Assembly (NCBI GenBank): GCA_017449935.1
Contig: JAFSYP010000003.1
Coordinates: forward strand, 1-48,539
Reading direction: 5' to 3'
DNA: 48,539 nt
Source: Clostridia bacterium
Lineage (GTDB): Bacteria; Bacillota; Clostridia; Oscillospirales; Acutalibacteraceae
Below, one piece after another: positions 32,349 to 38,183 of the stretch. The notes beneath the pieces are model-generated. The model made no database searches. It was given only the letters and a program-made list of their open reading frames with translations, and had not been told where the DNA came from. Within the stretch, counting starts at the first letter, position 1, and the number at the start of each line of letters is the position of its first letter. The position numbers were made by a program, and so were the translations under genes.

Positions 32349-32377
32349 TTGCTTTTTTTGTCATTATATTGTAATAT
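32349..32377 (+). promoter_or_regulatory. Promoter of the dockerin-LRR/cohesin unit
   Basis: TTGCTT (32349-32354) and TAATAT (32372-32377), 17-bp spacer, in an AT-rich stretch about 45 nt before the start codon. Confidence 0.75.
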
Positions 32378-32422
32378 ATAGATAATTAGCAATCTATACT
32401 ATATTGCAAAGGAGGTTTTGTC

Positions 32423-33982
32423 TTGAAATTTTCACGAATACAAAAACTTTTATCCTGTACTTTGGCGTTTCTGCTTTTGCTTTCCGCAGGCGCTGCAGCC
32501 GGTTCTCCGATGTTCGGAACATTTCTCGCGAATGCAGCGCAGACAGATTCGGGATACCAGTATATCGCGGATTCTTCAAAGAAAACGGCGCAGATCACCG
32601 GATACACCGGAAGCTCGCATTCACTGACGATCCCCTCGGTCATTGAAGGTTACTCCGTGACTTCGATCAAGAGCGAGGCGTTCAAAGGCAAGAACACGAT
32701 CCTTTCCGTTACGATCCCTGATACGGTGACCAACATCGGCAGCGAGTGCTTCTCGGGCTGTACGCTGCTCGGCGTCGTCGATCTTGGCAAAGGCGTTTCT
32801 TCCATCGGCAGCAAGGCGTTTGAAAACTGCAGCATACTCAGCACGATCAGTATTCCCGCTGCCACGTCGTCCATCGGCGCACAGGCTTTTATCGGGTGTA
32901 AAAAGCTGAAATCTATTGAGGTCTCTTCCGGCAATCTTGTTTTCACCTCAAAGGATGGCGTCCTGCTGACACGGTTAGAAACTTCGCTGATCACGTATCC
33001 CCCGGGACGCAGCAACGATAGCTATACCGCACCGGATGTTCTGTCCATTGAAAACTATGCGTTCCAAGACGCTAAGAGTCTCAAAACGCTCATTTTGTCC
33101 AAGTCGACGACCACGATCGGCAAGGGCGCGTTCAAGGGTTGCTCCGCACTTGAAAGAATTGCTACTTCGACTGATCCTGACAAATATGATCTTCCTGAAA
33201 AGCTCACTAAGATCGACGACGAAGTTTTCAGCGGATGTAAAAAACTATCCAAGCTATCTTTCCCGTCGTCTATCAAGTCGATCGGCGCAGACGCTTTCAA
33301 GGACTGCGTCTCGATTACAAAGTTCACGATCCCCGATAACATCACGACGATCGGCACAGGCGCTTTTTCCGGCTGTTCCGGGATTACTTCCGTTACGATC
33401 AATAAAAAGCTCACCGCGATTTCCGGCTCCGCTTTTGCCGGGTGCTCCGGTCTGAAGGAATACAAGGTCCCCGACGGCGCTTCCTTCACCGTGGCAAAGG
33501 GCGTTTTATTCAACAAGGAAGGCACCCGCCTGATCGCCTACCCCGCCGGCAGCGAAGCCACCGAGTATAAAGTAGGCGAAAAAGTCACGACGATCGGCGA
33601 AAACGCATTTGACAACTGCAAAAACCTCAAGAAGCTGACGATCCCCGCGACCGTCAAAAAGATCGTGGAGCCTGCCGTCAGAAACTGTGACGGTCTGACG
33701 ATCTATGTAGAGGAAGGCTCCGAAGCCCAGAAGTATTTCCAGGAACATACTTCCGGATTCAGCTCGCTGAAGATCGGATCGGACAAGCCCGGCGACGTGA
33801 ACGGGGACGGCGAAGTCGACAACGCCGACGTCATCCTGCTGCGCCGTTATGTCGCCAAATGGAAGAACGTAGCGATTCACACGGAGTCTGCGGACGTCAA
33901 TAAAGACGGCGAAGTCGACAACGCCGACGTCATCCTGCTGCGCCGCTATGTCGCCGGATGGAAGAACGTCAAACTGAAGTAA
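32423..33982 (+). CDS. Secreted leucine-rich-repeat (BspA-like) protein with C-terminal type I dockerin
   Basis: Starts at TTG 32423, seven bases after AAAGGAGG. Signal peptide in residues 1-39 (SCTLAFLLLLSAGAAAGS). Residues ~60-440 are LRR_5 repeats of about 23 residues with the pattern IGxxAFxxCxxLxxIxIPxxVxxI. Residues ~457-519 form a dockerin: two calcium loops, DVNGDGEVDNADVILLRRYV and DVNKDGEVDNADVILLRRYV, 33 residues apart. Dockerins bind cohesins, and a cohesin protein is encoded next. The LRR part likely mediates binding to proteins or host or glycan surfaces; no catalytic domain is present. Confidence 0.93.
   Translation: MKFSRIQKLLSCTLAFLLLLSAGAAAGSPMFGTFLANAAQTDSGYQYIADSSKKTAQITGYTGSSHSLTIPSVIEGYSVTSIKSEAFKGKNTILSVTIPDTVTNIGSECFSGCTLLGVVDLGKGVSSIGSKAFENCSILSTISIPAATSSIGAQAFIGCKKLKSIEVSSGNLVFTSKDGVLLTRLETSLITYPPGRSNDSYTAPDVLSIENYAFQDAKSLKTLILSKSTTTIGKGAFKGCSALERIATSTDPDKYDLPEKLTKIDDEVFSGCKKLSKLSFPSSIKSIGADAFKDCVSITKFTIPDNITTIGTGAFSGCSGITSVTINKKLTAISGSAFAGCSGLKEYKVPDGASFTVAKGVLFNKEGTRLIAYPAGSEATEYKVGEKVTTIGENAFDNCKNLKKLTIPATVKKIVEPAVRNCDGLTIYVEEGSEAQKYFQEHTSGFSSLKIGSDKPGDVNGDGEVDNADVILLRRYVAKWKNVAIHTESADVNKDGEVDNADVILLRRYVAGWKNVKLK
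33806..33955 (+). repeat. Near-identical DNA duplication within the dockerin
   Basis: Two 51-nt segments (33806-33856 and 33905-33955) differ at one synonymous position and encode the two calcium-binding loops with helices. The unit period is 99 nt. Confidence 0.9.
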
Positions 33983-34000
33983 TAATAAAAGGAGACTGTT

Positions 34001-34909
34001 ATGAAAAGAATTGCTAAAACGACTCTGATCGCCCTGATATGCGCGTTTCTGTGCTTTGCAATGATCCCGTTCAGCGCCTGTGCCGAAGACGACGGCGCGG
34101 CCGTTTCCGTCAGCAGCGCAAGCGGCAAGGCCGGAGATACGGTGACGATTAATGTTTCACTGGACGAGAACCCCGGCTTGATCGCCATGAATCTGAACGT
34201 AAACTACGACGACAAGCAGCTTGAACTTGTAAACGTCAGCGATTCCGGAATGCTCAAGGGATTCAATTCCCCCTCCTCCTATGAAGGCAGCTCCTATACG
34301 CTGAACTGGGAAGACGGCCTTTCGACCGAAAACAACAAGGGCACCGGCACGGTCGCGACGCTGACCTTCAAGCTCAAGGAGGACTGCGACAAGGCGTCGG
34401 TTTCCGTCGCCGGAAAAGGGCATGACGCAGACGTAAATACGGTAAGCGTATCGGGCAGCAGCGGCACCATCACAAACACAAGTCCGACCACGACCACGAC
34501 AACCACAACCACAACAACGACGACCACGACAAAACCGGCCACAACAAAGCCGACAACGACAAAGTCAGCGACGACCAGATCGTCTGCAACGACCACGAGA
34601 GCATATACGACGCAGCCGTCCTACACGCGCAGCAGTAATGCGGACAATACATATCCCCTCGTACAATCCGATCTTTCCACGACCGAAGCGGAAACCGAGA
34701 GCACGACCGACCTGCTCGCTCTGTGGGAAACGACCAATGATTTTTGGATGACCATGTCGCCGACGGTCGAATCCACGACCGAGATCGAGGAAAGCAATTC
34801 GCGCAGCCCTCTGTCCAAGAGCAAGATCATCCTGATCGCTCTGATGGGCGCATTTGCCGTTATCGGCGTCGCGATCATCATTTCCATGGTACGCAAGAGC
34901 CAAGGTTAA
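34001..34909 (+). CDS. Membrane-anchored single-cohesin protein
   Basis: Signal peptide in residues 1-27 (LIALICAFLCFAMIPFSACA; the Cys in FSAC could even be an atypical lipobox). Residues ~33-148 fit a cohesin: VSVSSASGKAGDTVTINVSLDENPGLIAMNLNVNYDD, then GTGTVATLTFKLK. A Thr-rich linker with (ACN)n codons spans ~152-200, then an acidic Thr/Ser region and a C-terminal helix (~275-296, IILIALMGAFAVIGVAIIISMV) ending in RKSQG. There is no LPxTG, so anchoring is by the helix. 18 nt downstream of the dockerin gene; probably its receptor. Confidence 0.88.
   Translation: MKRIAKTTLIALICAFLCFAMIPFSACAEDDGAAVSVSSASGKAGDTVTINVSLDENPGLIAMNLNVNYDDKQLELVNVSDSGMLKGFNSPSSYEGSSYTLNWEDGLSTENNKGTGTVATLTFKLKEDCDKASVSVAGKGHDADVNTVSVSGSSGTITNTSPTTTTTTTTTTTTTTTKPATTKPTTTKSATTRSSATTTRAYTTQPSYTRSSNADNTYPLVQSDLSTTEAETESTTDLLALWETTNDFWMTMSPTVESTTEIEESNSRSPLSKSKIILIALMGAFAVIGVAIIISMVRKSQG
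34487..34560 (+). repeat. Thr-codon (ACN) low-complexity tract
   Basis: Almost uninterrupted ACN triplets encode the Thr linker of the cohesin protein; a simple-sequence stretch that could vary in length by slippage. Confidence 0.8.
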
Positions 34910-34923
34910 TCCGATTGTCTTTT

Positions 34924-34951
34924 TCGGCGGAGCCTGACGCGGTTCCGCCGA
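34924..34951 (+). terminator. Possible terminator after the cohesin gene
   Basis: 8-bp perfect stem TCGGCGGA/TCCGCCGA with a 12-nt loop followed by TTCTT; a weak T tail, so likely partial. Confidence 0.5.
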
Positions 34952-34987: not shown

Positions 34988-36976
34988 ATGAAACTCGGAA
35001 AGAAACTGATCTGTCTGCTGCTGTGCTTTGCCATGCTCGTCACCACATTGACCTGCGTCGCCGCAGCGAAAAAGCAGGACGCCGTTTATACCGCGTCAAC
35101 CGTACAGGAGGCGCTCGATCTGATTGCGCAGCAGGACGTCGATCATGACTGCAAGACGAAGTGTCACGGCAACTGCGGATATTCGCCTGTCATCATCGTA
35201 CCCGGCATCATGCAGTCACAGGTTTATGTGCAGAACAAGGAAGGCACCGGCGACCTGATGACGGTCGACGGCTTCCCGATCGTGGAAGGCATGGACATGG
35301 CGTTTATGTTCGATACACAGTCTGTCAAACAGGACGTCAAGAAAATGATCTTCCCGCTTCTGACGGCGTTTCTTTTCGGACGTAAGGCGCAGTTCATCGA
35401 CCTTGTGTGCGAGATCCTGGATAAATGCTTTTACAGCCATTATTTCAACGAGGACGGTACGCGCGTGTATCCCGCACAGGTGGATGAATACTGGTACTCT
35501 CTTGAGGAATGCAAGAATCATCCCGAGAAATCCTACAACTATGCCAAGGGTTATTCCACGGATAAAAACGGCAATACGCTGCCGACGACAAAGTATCAGA
35601 CCGAATACGACTTCATCATGCGCCAGGTCGACGTGAGCAGCTACGGCGAAAAAGCCGGCTTCGATCACCTGTATTATTATGCGTACAGCTCCTTCGGCGA
35701 TACCTATGAGATCGCCTCGCGTCTGGACGACTTTGTGCAGATGGTCAAGGATCAGACCGGACACAGCAAGGTCAGCATCGTTTTTATTTCGCTGGGCGGA
35801 ACGATCGGCAGCACGTATCTGTCCGAGTTCTGCAACCCGCAGGATATCGACCGCATCGTGTTCGCAGCGGCGGCTCTTGACGGCTCGAATCTGCTGAGCA
35901 GCCTGATGAAAGCCGATCTGAACTTCGACAGCAAAAAGCTGTATACCACCATGATGCCGGATCTGATGTCCATTGTCGATTCCGATCTCATATGGGTAGG
36001 CTATCTTTTGAACGTCTTGCTGCGCTGCGTACCGCAAAAATTCCTTTCCGGCTATCTTTCAGACGTGGCATATGAAGGAATCCACCGTGTGCTGGGCAAC
36101 CTGTTATATAATTGTCCCTCGATGTGGGCGCTCGTCCCCAGCAGCGAATATCCGGCTATGGCGGATGAACTGATCAAAAGCGACGTGCTTCGCGCCAAGA
36201 CCGACCGTTATTACAATATCCAAAAGAACGCCAAAGAAACCATCCGCCGTCTTACGGACGAAGGTATGGACATTTTCGTGATCTGCGGCTATGATCTGCC
36301 GCTGCCGTCCATCCTCAAGTGCTACGCGTACAGCTCCGACAATATCATTCAGGCTTCTTCCACGTCCATCGGCGCCACCGTCGCGCCTTACGGCGAATCG
36401 CTGCCGGATGATTATGAACCCGCCATCGACGACAGTTACGTCTCTCCCGATCATCGCGTGGACGCCGGCACCTGCGCACTGCCCGACCGCACATGGTTTG
36501 TCAAGGGGCAGAGCCATCTGACGCTGCAGGCCGCGCTGCACGACACGATCGAGCTTTGCATTCAGATCGTCGTCAACAAGGATATTACGGACGCGCGTGA
36601 ACACAACGGCGGCTATAAGCAATTCAACGGCTACCGCTACACCAAGAAACTGCAGGAGCTGCTGCGCGACTATGAGAATCTGAGCGAAGATCAGCTGAAC
36701 AAGCTGTCCAAGAGAAAACGCGACGCACTGCAGAAAGCGTATGATAACGGCGTTGCGGAGCTTTCCAGTATGGACTGGGACGGCGAAAAGATGCTTGCGG
36801 CAGAAAGAGCGATGTACACCGCCATGTACAGAGCGCGGCTGCTCACCAATCAAAAGACAGCCGACTCCCCGTTCAAACGCTATGTCGCGCCGAAAACTGC
36901 GGAGAAGGTCATGCAGTTCTGGAGCGACAGCACCTTCAAGATCTTCGGTACAGACGATTTTATACTCTTTGCATGA
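34988..36976 (+). CDS. Secreted LCAT/lipase-like alpha/beta hydrolase with an atypical nucleophile elbow
   Basis: 662 residues with a signal peptide (LICLLLCFAMLVTTLTCVAAA). VIIVPGIMQSQVY near residue 70 resembles the oxyanion strand of lecithin:cholesterol acyltransferase-like lipases. The predicted nucleophile is Ser268 in VFISLGGTIGS, where Phe-Ile replaces the usual Gly-His of GHSxGG. A late His in KGQSHLTLQ could complete the triad, and DIFVICGYDLPLP resembles the acid strand. The C-terminal ~130 residues are helical, with no anchor visible. Function is inferred; it could act on lipids or be inactive. Start ATG behind AAAGGAG. Confidence 0.6.
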   Translation: MKLGKKLICLLLCFAMLVTTLTCVAAAKKQDAVYTASTVQEALDLIAQQDVDHDCKTKCHGNCGYSPVIIVPGIMQSQVYVQNKEGTGDLMTVDGFPIVEGMDMAFMFDTQSVKQDVKKMIFPLLTAFLFGRKAQFIDLVCEILDKCFYSHYFNEDGTRVYPAQVDEYWYSLEECKNHPEKSYNYAKGYSTDKNGNTLPTTKYQTEYDFIMRQVDVSSYGEKAGFDHLYYYAYSSFGDTYEIASRLDDFVQMVKDQTGHSKVSIVFISLGGTIGSTYLSEFCNPQDIDRIVFAAAALDGSNLLSSLMKADLNFDSKKLYTTMMPDLMSIVDSDLIWVGYLLNVLLRCVPQKFLSGYLSDVAYEGIHRVLGNLLYNCPSMWALVPSSEYPAMADELIKSDVLRAKTDRYYNIQKNAKETIRRLTDEGMDIFVICGYDLPLPSILKCYAYSSDNIIQASSTSIGATVAPYGESLPDDYEPAIDDSYVSPDHRVDAGTCALPDRTWFVKGQSHLTLQAALHDTIELCIQIVVNKDITDAREHNGGYKQFNGYRYTKKLQELLRDYENLSEDQLNKLSKRKRDALQKAYDNGVAELSSMDWDGEKMLAAERAMYTAMYRARLLTNQKTADSPFKRYVAPKTAEKVMQFWSDSTFKIFGTDDFILFA

Positions 36977-36998: not shown

Positions 36999-38183
36999 AT
37001 GACTAAGATCGACATTTTTTCCGGATTCCTCGGTGCCGGAAAAACCACGCTTATTAAAAAACTGATCGCCGACAGTTACGCCGGCGAAAAGCTCGTATTG
37101 ATCGAAAACGAATTCGGCGAGATCGGCATCGACGGCGCCTTTATGCAGGACGCCGGGATCGAAGTGACGGAAATGAATTCCGGCTGCATTTGCTGCAGCC
37201 TGGTCGGCGATTTTGGAAAAGCGCTGCGCAAGGTTTTGGAGGAATACGCGCCTGACCGCATACTGATCGAGCCGTCCGGCGTCGGCAAACTGTCCGACGT
37301 CATCAAAGCCGTGCAGGGCATCGACAGCCAGGACATTCTGCTCAACGCATTCACGACCGTCGTAGACGCCGGGAAATGCAAGATGTATATGAAAAACTTC
37401 GGCGAGTTCTTCAACGATCAGGTTGAACATGCCGGCACGATCATCATGAGCCACGCTGACGTTGTGTCGCCCGAAAAACTCGCGACGGCCGTTTCGCTGG
37501 TTCGTGAAAAGAATCCGACCGCCGTGATCGTCACAACGCCGATCACGCTCCTGAGCGGCGAGACGCTGCTCAGCGCGGTGGAGAGAAAGGACACGCTGCA
37601 CGCCGCGCTGGAGCATCTGCTCGAAGAGCAGGAAGAAGAGCACGAGCATCATCATGAACATGAGCACGAGCATCATCATGAACATGAGCACGAGCATCAT
37701 CATGACCATGAGCACGAGCATCATCATGACCATGAGCACGAGCATCATCATGACCATGAGCACGAGCATCATCACGACCATGAGCATGAGCATCATCATG
37801 AACATGAGCATGAGCATCATCATGAACATGAGCATGAGCACGACCACGGTCCGGAATGTACCTGCGGCTGCCATGACCACGATCATGACCATCATCATCA
37901 CCATGCGGACGAAGTGTTTGTCAGCTGGGGCGCGGAAACGACAAACGCCTATTCCGAATCGAAGCTGCACGATATTCTGGAAGCGCTGGAGGACGAGAAG
38001 CAGTACGGCATGATCCTGCGCGCAAAAGGCGTCGTACCGGGAGAAAACGGACAGTGGCTCCATTTCGACTATGTTCCCGGCGAAGCGGACGTGCGAATCG
38101 GTTCGGCCGGATTGATCGGGCGGCTGTGCGTGATCGGCTCCGCGCTGCATGAGGATGCGCTCGCCGCGTTATTCAACGTATAA
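36999..38183 (+). CDS. G3E-family (COG0523/CobW) GTPase with a long His-rich metal-binding tract
   Basis: Putative zinc (or other metal) metallochaperone. Walker A GFLGAGKTT (residues ~9-17); the metal motif GCICCS with Cys63, Cys65 and Cys66; DRILIEPSGVG as the switch/Walker B region. The guanine-specificity NKxD is replaced by SHAD (IIMSHADVV). Residues ~216-283 are eight 8-residue repeats (EHHH[E/D]HEH), then GPECTCGCHDHDHDHHHHH, and a CobW C-terminal domain closes the 394-residue protein. 22 nt after the hydrolase and 9 nt before a second G3E gene. The metal is inferred. Confidence 0.88.
   Translation: MTKIDIFSGFLGAGKTTLIKKLIADSYAGEKLVLIENEFGEIGIDGAFMQDAGIEVTEMNSGCICCSLVGDFGKALRKVLEEYAPDRILIEPSGVGKLSDVIKAVQGIDSQDILLNAFTTVVDAGKCKMYMKNFGEFFNDQVEHAGTIIMSHADVVSPEKLATAVSLVREKNPTAVIVTTPITLLSGETLLSAVERKDTLHAALEHLLEEQEEEHEHHHEHEHEHHHEHEHEHHHDHEHEHHHDHEHEHHHDHEHEHHHDHEHEHHHEHEHEHHHEHEHEHDHGPECTCGCHDHDHDHHHHHADEVFVSWGAETTNAYSESKLHDILEALEDEKQYGMILRAKGVVPGENGQWLHFDYVPGEADVRIGSAGLIGRLCVIGSALHEDALAALFNV
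37644..37835 (+). repeat. Eight tandem 24-bp repeats encoding the His tract
   Basis: In-frame unit GAGCATCATCATGAMCATGA plus GCAY, eight copies with a few third-base or Glu/Asp changes. It encodes EHHH[E/D]HEH and behaves as a minisatellite able to expand or contract without a frameshift. Confidence 0.95.

Follow-up and report, generated by a model that had tools for sequence, protein, structure and literature searches.

Many leucine-rich repeat (LRR) proteins with a dockerin are known from Ruminococcus flavefaciens, a species with a well-studied cellulosome, and in strain FD-1 both ScaI, an LRR-cohesin-dockerin (LRR-Coh-Doc) protein of group 4a, and a group-2 LRR-dockerin (LRR-Doc) protein bind ScaE (Table 1, PMC5301203; this and the other papers cited by accession are represented here by excerpts). 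ScaE is a single-cohesin, sortase-attached anchor that also holds the cellulose-binding protein CttA (PMC2930009). Through ScaI and the group-2 protein on ScaE, the attachment of an LRR cargo to a single-cohesin anchor is already known in kind. Here, a pair of adjacent genes was analysed in a 48,539-nucleotide stretch (the window) of contig JAFSYP010000003.1 from a Clostridia bacterium of the family Acutalibacteraceae; the first gene (ORF1) encodes an LRR protein with a C-terminal dockerin, and the second (ORF2) a cohesin protein with a predicted membrane segment. The genus of the pair consists of uncultured gut bacteria, and the cohesin-dockerin fastener that probably joins the two proteins is the same as that in the cellulose-digesting complexes of other bacteria. 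We consider that ORF1 and ORF2 form a surface-display unit with a probable specificity of its own within a larger non-cellulosomal network, and assign this reading a probability of roughly two-thirds.

Like ScaI and ScaE, the pair matches an LRR protein bearing a terminal dockerin with a predicted single-cohesin surface anchor, and five relatives of ORF1 have the LRR-Coh-Doc architecture of ScaI. ORF1 itself, unlike ScaI, has no internal cohesin; ORF2, unlike ScaE, carries a membrane segment but lacks a sortase motif; and, unlike ScaI and ScaE, ORF1 and ORF2 are encoded side by side, in a genus where GH9 gave no match. CttA on ScaE offers a second likeness: CttA is a binding protein and not an enzyme, its dockerin fixes it to an anchor with one cohesin, and both are encoded in one gene cluster (PMC2930009). 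CttA differs from ORF1 in binding cellulose through two carbohydrate-binding modules (PMC4081043) and in carrying an X-dockerin (PMC5301203), and ScaE differs from ORF2 in its attachment by sortase and in also holding the cellulosome through ScaB. The locus differs from what is known in being a compact, conserved gene pair, in having a membrane segment for a sortase signal, in its setting without GH9 and in a likely private code. An LRR-Doc gene beside a cohesin anchor in such bacteria was not named among the literature matches listed, which were mostly titles and abstract openings, and the literature found on BspA with cohesin and dockerin consisted of two engineering papers. Peer et al. 2009 reportedly dealt with non-cellulosomal cohesins and dockerins, as its title has it.

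The LRR-dockerin gene and the anchor gene

ORF1 (32423..33982; this and all other features of the locus given by coordinates are on the plus strand) starts with TTG at 32423, has a stop codon ending at 33982, and encodes a 519-amino acid protein with a hydrophobic N-terminus. A ribosome-binding site read from the sequence, AAAGGAGG (32408..32415), is located 7 bases 5′ of the start, and the same site precedes the ORF1 start in six of seven aligned regions of the genus. Pfam analysis identified LRR_5 in four stretches (E=6.8e-70), giving a BspA-type LRR region at residues ~59-440 (32597..33742), which is related to the solved structures 4gt6 (1.1e-47), 4fs7 and 4h09; solved relatives of ORF1 overall are LRR proteins and dockerins. 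Residues 456-510 (33788..33952) match the type I dockerin family Dockerin_1 (PF00404; E=6.9e-14, 52.2 bits against a cut-off of 22.9) and, read directly, consist of two near-identical calcium-binding loop-helix repeats at the C-terminus, each with the dyad Asn-Ala. ORF1 combines BspA-type LRRs with a type I dockerin at its C-terminus.

Following a gap of 18 bases, which contains the ribosome-binding site AAAAGGAG (33987..33994, read from the sequence), ORF2 (34001..34909) starts with ATG and encodes 302 amino acids, again with a hydrophobic N-terminus. Residues 34-158 (34100..34474) are a cohesin (Pfam PF00963; E=5.6e-15, 56.2 bits against a cut-off of 24.1), followed by a threonine-rich (poly-Thr) stalk read from the sequence at residues ~163-208 (34487..34624) and by a C-terminal transmembrane segment (34817..34873, hydropathy scan) with a short basic tail. 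This segment is kept in nine of ten ORF2 orthologues, the tenth being truncated by a contig end. No LPXTG sortase signal was seen on reading the ORF2 sequence. With one cohesin, no dockerin and a C-terminal hydrophobic segment, ORF2 has the make-up of a ScaE-type anchor, and its attachment to the membrane is predicted. A profile of the ten ORF2 orthologues matched cohesins among solved structures (best match 2vn5, E=1e-9); as regards a type III assignment, one of the 14 matched chains is named Scaffoldin C (weak, 0.0027) and none is named ScaE. No relatives of ORF2 were found in a plasmid collection, and none of the anchor alignment in a scan of viral contigs.

A promoter-like site precedes both genes (32349..32377), with TTGCTT at 32349-32354, a 17-base spacer, and TAATAT at 32372-32377 preceded by TG. 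The TTGC element and a downstream AT-rich block align in all seven upstream regions compared (seven genomes of the genus, leaving aside G001-G003), and a single promoter from 32349 is therefore likely to be real. The window has a single TTGCWTTTTT motif, at 32349 (0.24 expected), and a scan for the bare promoter consensus was at the level of chance (4 found, 3.4 expected). The initial annotation, made from the sequence alone, had placed at this position two adjacent genes behind one promoter, encoding an LRR-dockerin protein in place of an enzyme and a membrane-anchored cohesin protein; the Pfam domains bear out the gene assignments, with the profile search recovering the cohesin in the second protein, and the aligned upstream motif fits the promoter.

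Conservation of the pair and specificity of its pairing

Of the 11 genomes of the genus, 10 have an orthologue of the anchor (E≤7.5e-48), the exception (G010) being only 59% complete. Directly upstream of the anchor is an LRR-Doc gene in G000, G005, G007, G008 and G009, and an LRR-Coh-Doc gene in G001 (where the dockerin is partly masked), G002, G003, G004 and G006, so that 5 of the 10 orthologous loci have the internal cohesin that ORF1 lacks. In G001 and G003, which are drafts of 90% and 95% completeness, the only two cohesin matches in the genome are both at the pair locus, as are two of the three in G002. The initial description of the pair as self-contained and minimal comes nearer the truth in G001 and G003, and does not hold for the source genome with its 19 cohesin and 36 dockerin matches. 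A compact LRR-Doc and anchor locus, in a genus with two genomes where no cohesin is matched elsewhere, opens the question of the LRR-dockerin partner to direct testing; on the R. flavefaciens microarray most LRR-borne dockerins bound no tested cohesin, according to the excerpt of PMC5301203.

A tree of 74 cohesins placed the 10 anchor cohesins and the 5 internal cohesins of the LRR-Coh-Doc proteins in one clade (support 96/97), which also holds one long-branched outsider (G007_C193), and kept the 31 cohesins of tandem Coh-Doc proteins separate. Dockerin positions 11 and 12 matter for recognition (PMC5301203, excerpt), and a recognition dyad was scored as the two residues preceding the last aspartate of each loop, taken as these positions. 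All 10 repeats of the five LRR-Doc partners have the dyad Asn-Ala, and among the 8 repeats of the LRR-Coh-Doc partners, 4 have Gly-Lys and the others mixed pairs. Leu, Met, Val or Ile is found at the first dyad position in none of the 18 partner repeats (nine proteins), compared with 52 of 60 repeats in 33 other two-module proteins and 24 of 29 repeats in other dockerin proteins. These counts cover the dockerins of fetched loci that the local model detected, and so omit many from G002 and G004-G010; the G001 partner dockerin is omitted for its masked residues (the protein was likewise left out of the partner alignment). Within the source genome, the Asn-Ala dyad is specific to ORF1 (1 of 36 dockerins), and three others have Asn first in one repeat only; the same reading covered 4 of 5 dockerin matches in G001 and 5 of 9 in G003. 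A third type of dockerin, with a Ser-Thr or Ser-Ser dyad, is carried by InlB-repeat proteins at five loci (L031, L032, L036, L037 and L038), in frames of 1237 to 3501 amino acids on contigs C33, C15, C3 and C79.

Judged from these sequence features, a private pairing of ORF1 with ORF2 is likely, and the two proteins probably bind each other. The competing idea that ORF2 is a general base anchor, its cohesin taking the Leu-Lys dockerins of tandem Coh-Doc proteins so that ORF1 is one cargo among many, draws on the 35 further dockerin matches of the source genome, on there being only two other dockerin-free cohesin proteins with a C-terminal hydrophobic segment (C33:58639 and C30:32335), and on a Leu-Leu-Arg-Arg-Tyr dockerin helix common to many dockerins. 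However, the anchor cohesins group away from the tandem cohesins, beside those internal to the neighbouring LRR gene, the recognition dyads of the partners differ from those of the tandem proteins, and G001 and G003 retain the anchor with no cohesin match beyond the pair locus, making a general anchor unlikely.

Several observations weigh against a private display unit. The Leu-Leu-Arg-Arg helix of the ORF1 dockerin is common to many dockerins of the source genome, and because recognition residues beyond the dyad are shared in this way, cross-binding with other partners may occur. G001-G003 still hold 5 to 9 dockerin matches per genome, so that other cargo may exist even there. The dockerin tree was poorly resolved, and in it the partners are not a single clade (2 changes; a single origin in 14% of bootstrap trees). 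Folding of a single dockerin-linker-cohesin chain, obtained by translating across the three stops that separate ORF1 from ORF2 (which share a frame), gave a mean predicted local distance difference test (pLDDT) score of 53.5 and a predicted template modelling (pTM) score of 0.44, with the dockerin below 50, too low a confidence to judge docking by; the alignment had five rows, in which two relatives were read through likewise and the two domains of a third were entered as separate rows. In R. flavefaciens, three group-1 LRR-Doc proteins bind ScaA/ScaB-type cohesins and an LRR-protease-dockerin protein binds ScaC (PMC5301203, excerpt), and since several LRR-dockerins there bind non-anchor cohesins, a surface anchor does not follow from an LRR cargo.

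The last two observations also bear on the view that ORF1 and ORF2 do not bind each other, ORF1 instead docking on another cohesin or on the anchor of another cell, the ORF2 cohesin receiving a different partner, and adjacency reflecting co-expression alone: the folded chain gave no structural support for a complex, and the R. flavefaciens LRR-borne dockerins were mostly without a partner on the microarray, with several on non-anchor cohesins. This view is improbable given that 10 of 11 genomes keep the two genes adjacent, G001 and G003 with no further cohesin match among them, and that the internal cohesin of the LRR-Coh-Doc form groups with the neighbouring anchors.

In the preferred reading, that of a display unit, ORF1 and ORF2 would both be exported by way of their hydrophobic N-termini, ORF2 would be held in the membrane by its C-terminal segment with the cohesin raised on the Thr-rich stalk, and ORF1 would dock non-covalently on this cohesin through its dockerin. 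The LRR domain would then point outward as an adhesin or receptor, as its family suggests, and the dockerin could bind in two orientations (dual mode) because its two repeats are near-identical. The pair would be the most widely kept part found of a larger non-cellulosomal cohesin-dockerin surface network in the genus, to which its connections are putative.

Cohesins and dockerins beyond the locus

A profile search of the whole source genome (2.95 Mb, 87% complete) gave 19 matches for cohesin and 36 for dockerin, 34 of the latter exceeding the family cut-off; in scans of whole proteins, the dockerins of C15, C33:118532, C73 and C79 and the cohesin of C30:24603 fell below the cut-off, and C10 showed no dockerin. 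That the pair is the sole cohesin-dockerin system of the source genome was ruled out by these numbers. The window contains exactly one cohesin and one dockerin match, in agreement with the initial statement that no scaffoldin is nearby; no scaffoldin was found near the pair within the window, where carbohydrases had no dedicated search. In 15 of the 19 cohesin frames, which mostly encode large proteins, a C-terminal dockerin comes straight after the cohesin (the dockerin of C30:30023 was taken from Pfam coordinates, and that of C10 is below the Pfam cut-off), the C6 frame has cohesin, linker and dockerin, and the remaining three (ORF2, C33:58639 and C30:32335) have no dockerin. None of the 19 frames has more than one cohesin, as a scaffoldin would; among relatives, one frame in G004 has two cohesins and one in G005 has three, the third below the cut-off. 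R. flavefaciens has 5-11 single-cohesin, single-dockerin adaptors per strain (PMC4081043, excerpt), and the 15 tandem frames resemble these in joining cohesin and dockerin in one chain; unlike the adaptors, they are mostly found at the end of large proteins, in a genome without a multi-cohesin frame.

The frames of all 36 dockerin matches, some truncated by contig ends, were scanned against Pfam. LRR_5 was present in six (including ORF1), InlB-type (Flg_new) repeats were present in many, and five had an enzyme domain above the cut-off: a papain-like protease with a lectin-like domain, two metallophosphoesterases, a CHAP domain and a GH123-like domain, the last being the only carbohydrase-like protein among the 36. 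The remaining proteins have little or no recognised domain. GH9 was absent from all 11 genomes of the genus, in a search that was positive in 2 of 14 control genomes; GH48 was also absent from all 11, a weaker absence as no control genome was positive. These results point to cohesins and dockerins that, across the genome, chiefly serve proteins that are adhesin-like or unassigned, rather than enzymes that degrade fibre.

The candidate role of the pair as part of a cellulosome was rejected on these counts (1 of 36 carbohydrase-like; GH9 0 of 11; GH48 0 of 11 with no positive control). A remnant or outlier of an ordinary cellulosome is suggested by the cellulosomal character of both modules and by scaffoldin cohesins being the nearest solved cohesins, but with a single GH123-like protein among 36 dockerin proteins, GH9 lacking in 11 of 11 genomes (GH48 likewise, subject to its missing positive control) and no source-genome frame with more than one cohesin, this origin is very improbable. 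The non-cellulosomal setting claimed at the outset is thereby upheld. The initial annotation would have been contradicted by many scaffoldins and dockerin enzymes elsewhere in the genome that match this cohesin better; half of this was seen, in that many other cohesins and dockerins are present, but enzyme domains are few, no frame has more than one cohesin, and both the clade of the locus cohesin and the dyad of the ORF1 dockerin are distinct from the rest of the genome.

A wider proposal, judged less likely than not, is that the genus builds a scaffoldin-free adhesin coat by cohesin-dockerin pairing, with head-to-tail Coh-Doc chains, several dockerin codes (Asn-Ala, Leu-Lys and Ser-Thr) that keep parallel assemblies apart, and the pair as the private, LRR-headed membrane base that is retained most widely in the genus. 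Such chains are conceivable because most source-genome cohesins directly precede a C-terminal dockerin, so that subunits could both dock and be docked. If this were true, a chain could start from the same base by way of the LRR-Coh-Doc forms found in relatives.

A second cohesin anchor stands beside tandem Coh-Doc genes at L015 (604-9049, contig C30 of the source genome), where three Coh-Doc genes (frames of 1596, 245 and 775 amino acids) are followed by a cohesin-transmembrane (Coh-TM) gene of 238 amino acids; the 245-amino acid protein amounts to hardly anything beyond a hydrophobic N-terminus, a cohesin and a dockerin. At L019 (6933-10034, minus strand), a papain-like protease, a lectin-like domain, Big_3 repeats, a cohesin and a dockerin are combined in one frame of 1034 amino acids.

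Cohesins were found in 56 of 150 genomes and 46 of 107 genera of the family. A survey outside the genus covered 56 cohesin matches in open frames of up to 490 amino acids, and a crude hydropathy rule placed 32 of these in the Coh-TM class, eight of them with a same-strand dockerin frame within 200 bases. The neighbours of seven of the eight (all except that of L212) were scanned: LRRs were present in one (L175) and InlB-type or Big_2 repeats in two (L217 and L218), and the other four have nothing else above the cut-off. At L154, in a genome of a different genus (G305), an LRR_5-dockerin gene is directly followed by a Coh-TM gene. Also outside the genus, L170 (4429-7569, minus strand) encodes a protein with a phage-type lysozyme, SH3 repeats and a dockerin directly before a dockerin protein with two cohesins.

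Genes downstream of the pair

A terminator-like hairpin of 11 pairs with a weak T tail follows ORF2 (34924..34951), identified by consensus match alone. The third gene (34988..36976) encodes a protein with a hydrophobic N-terminus that resembles alpha/beta-hydrolases of the lipase type (Abhydrolase_1, 1.4e-5); its score falls just below the cut-off, and solved lipases match weakly. The hydrolase is also located within 1 kb 3′ of the pair in G004, G005, G006, G007 and G009; it is absent from the fetched flanks of G001-G003, and the G008 contig ends before that point. Further along, at 36999-38183 of the window, a CobW-type GTPase with a long His-Glu-His repeat tract is followed by a second CobW-like gene, both recognised by eye, and the look of the sequence suggests a possible part in metal handling.

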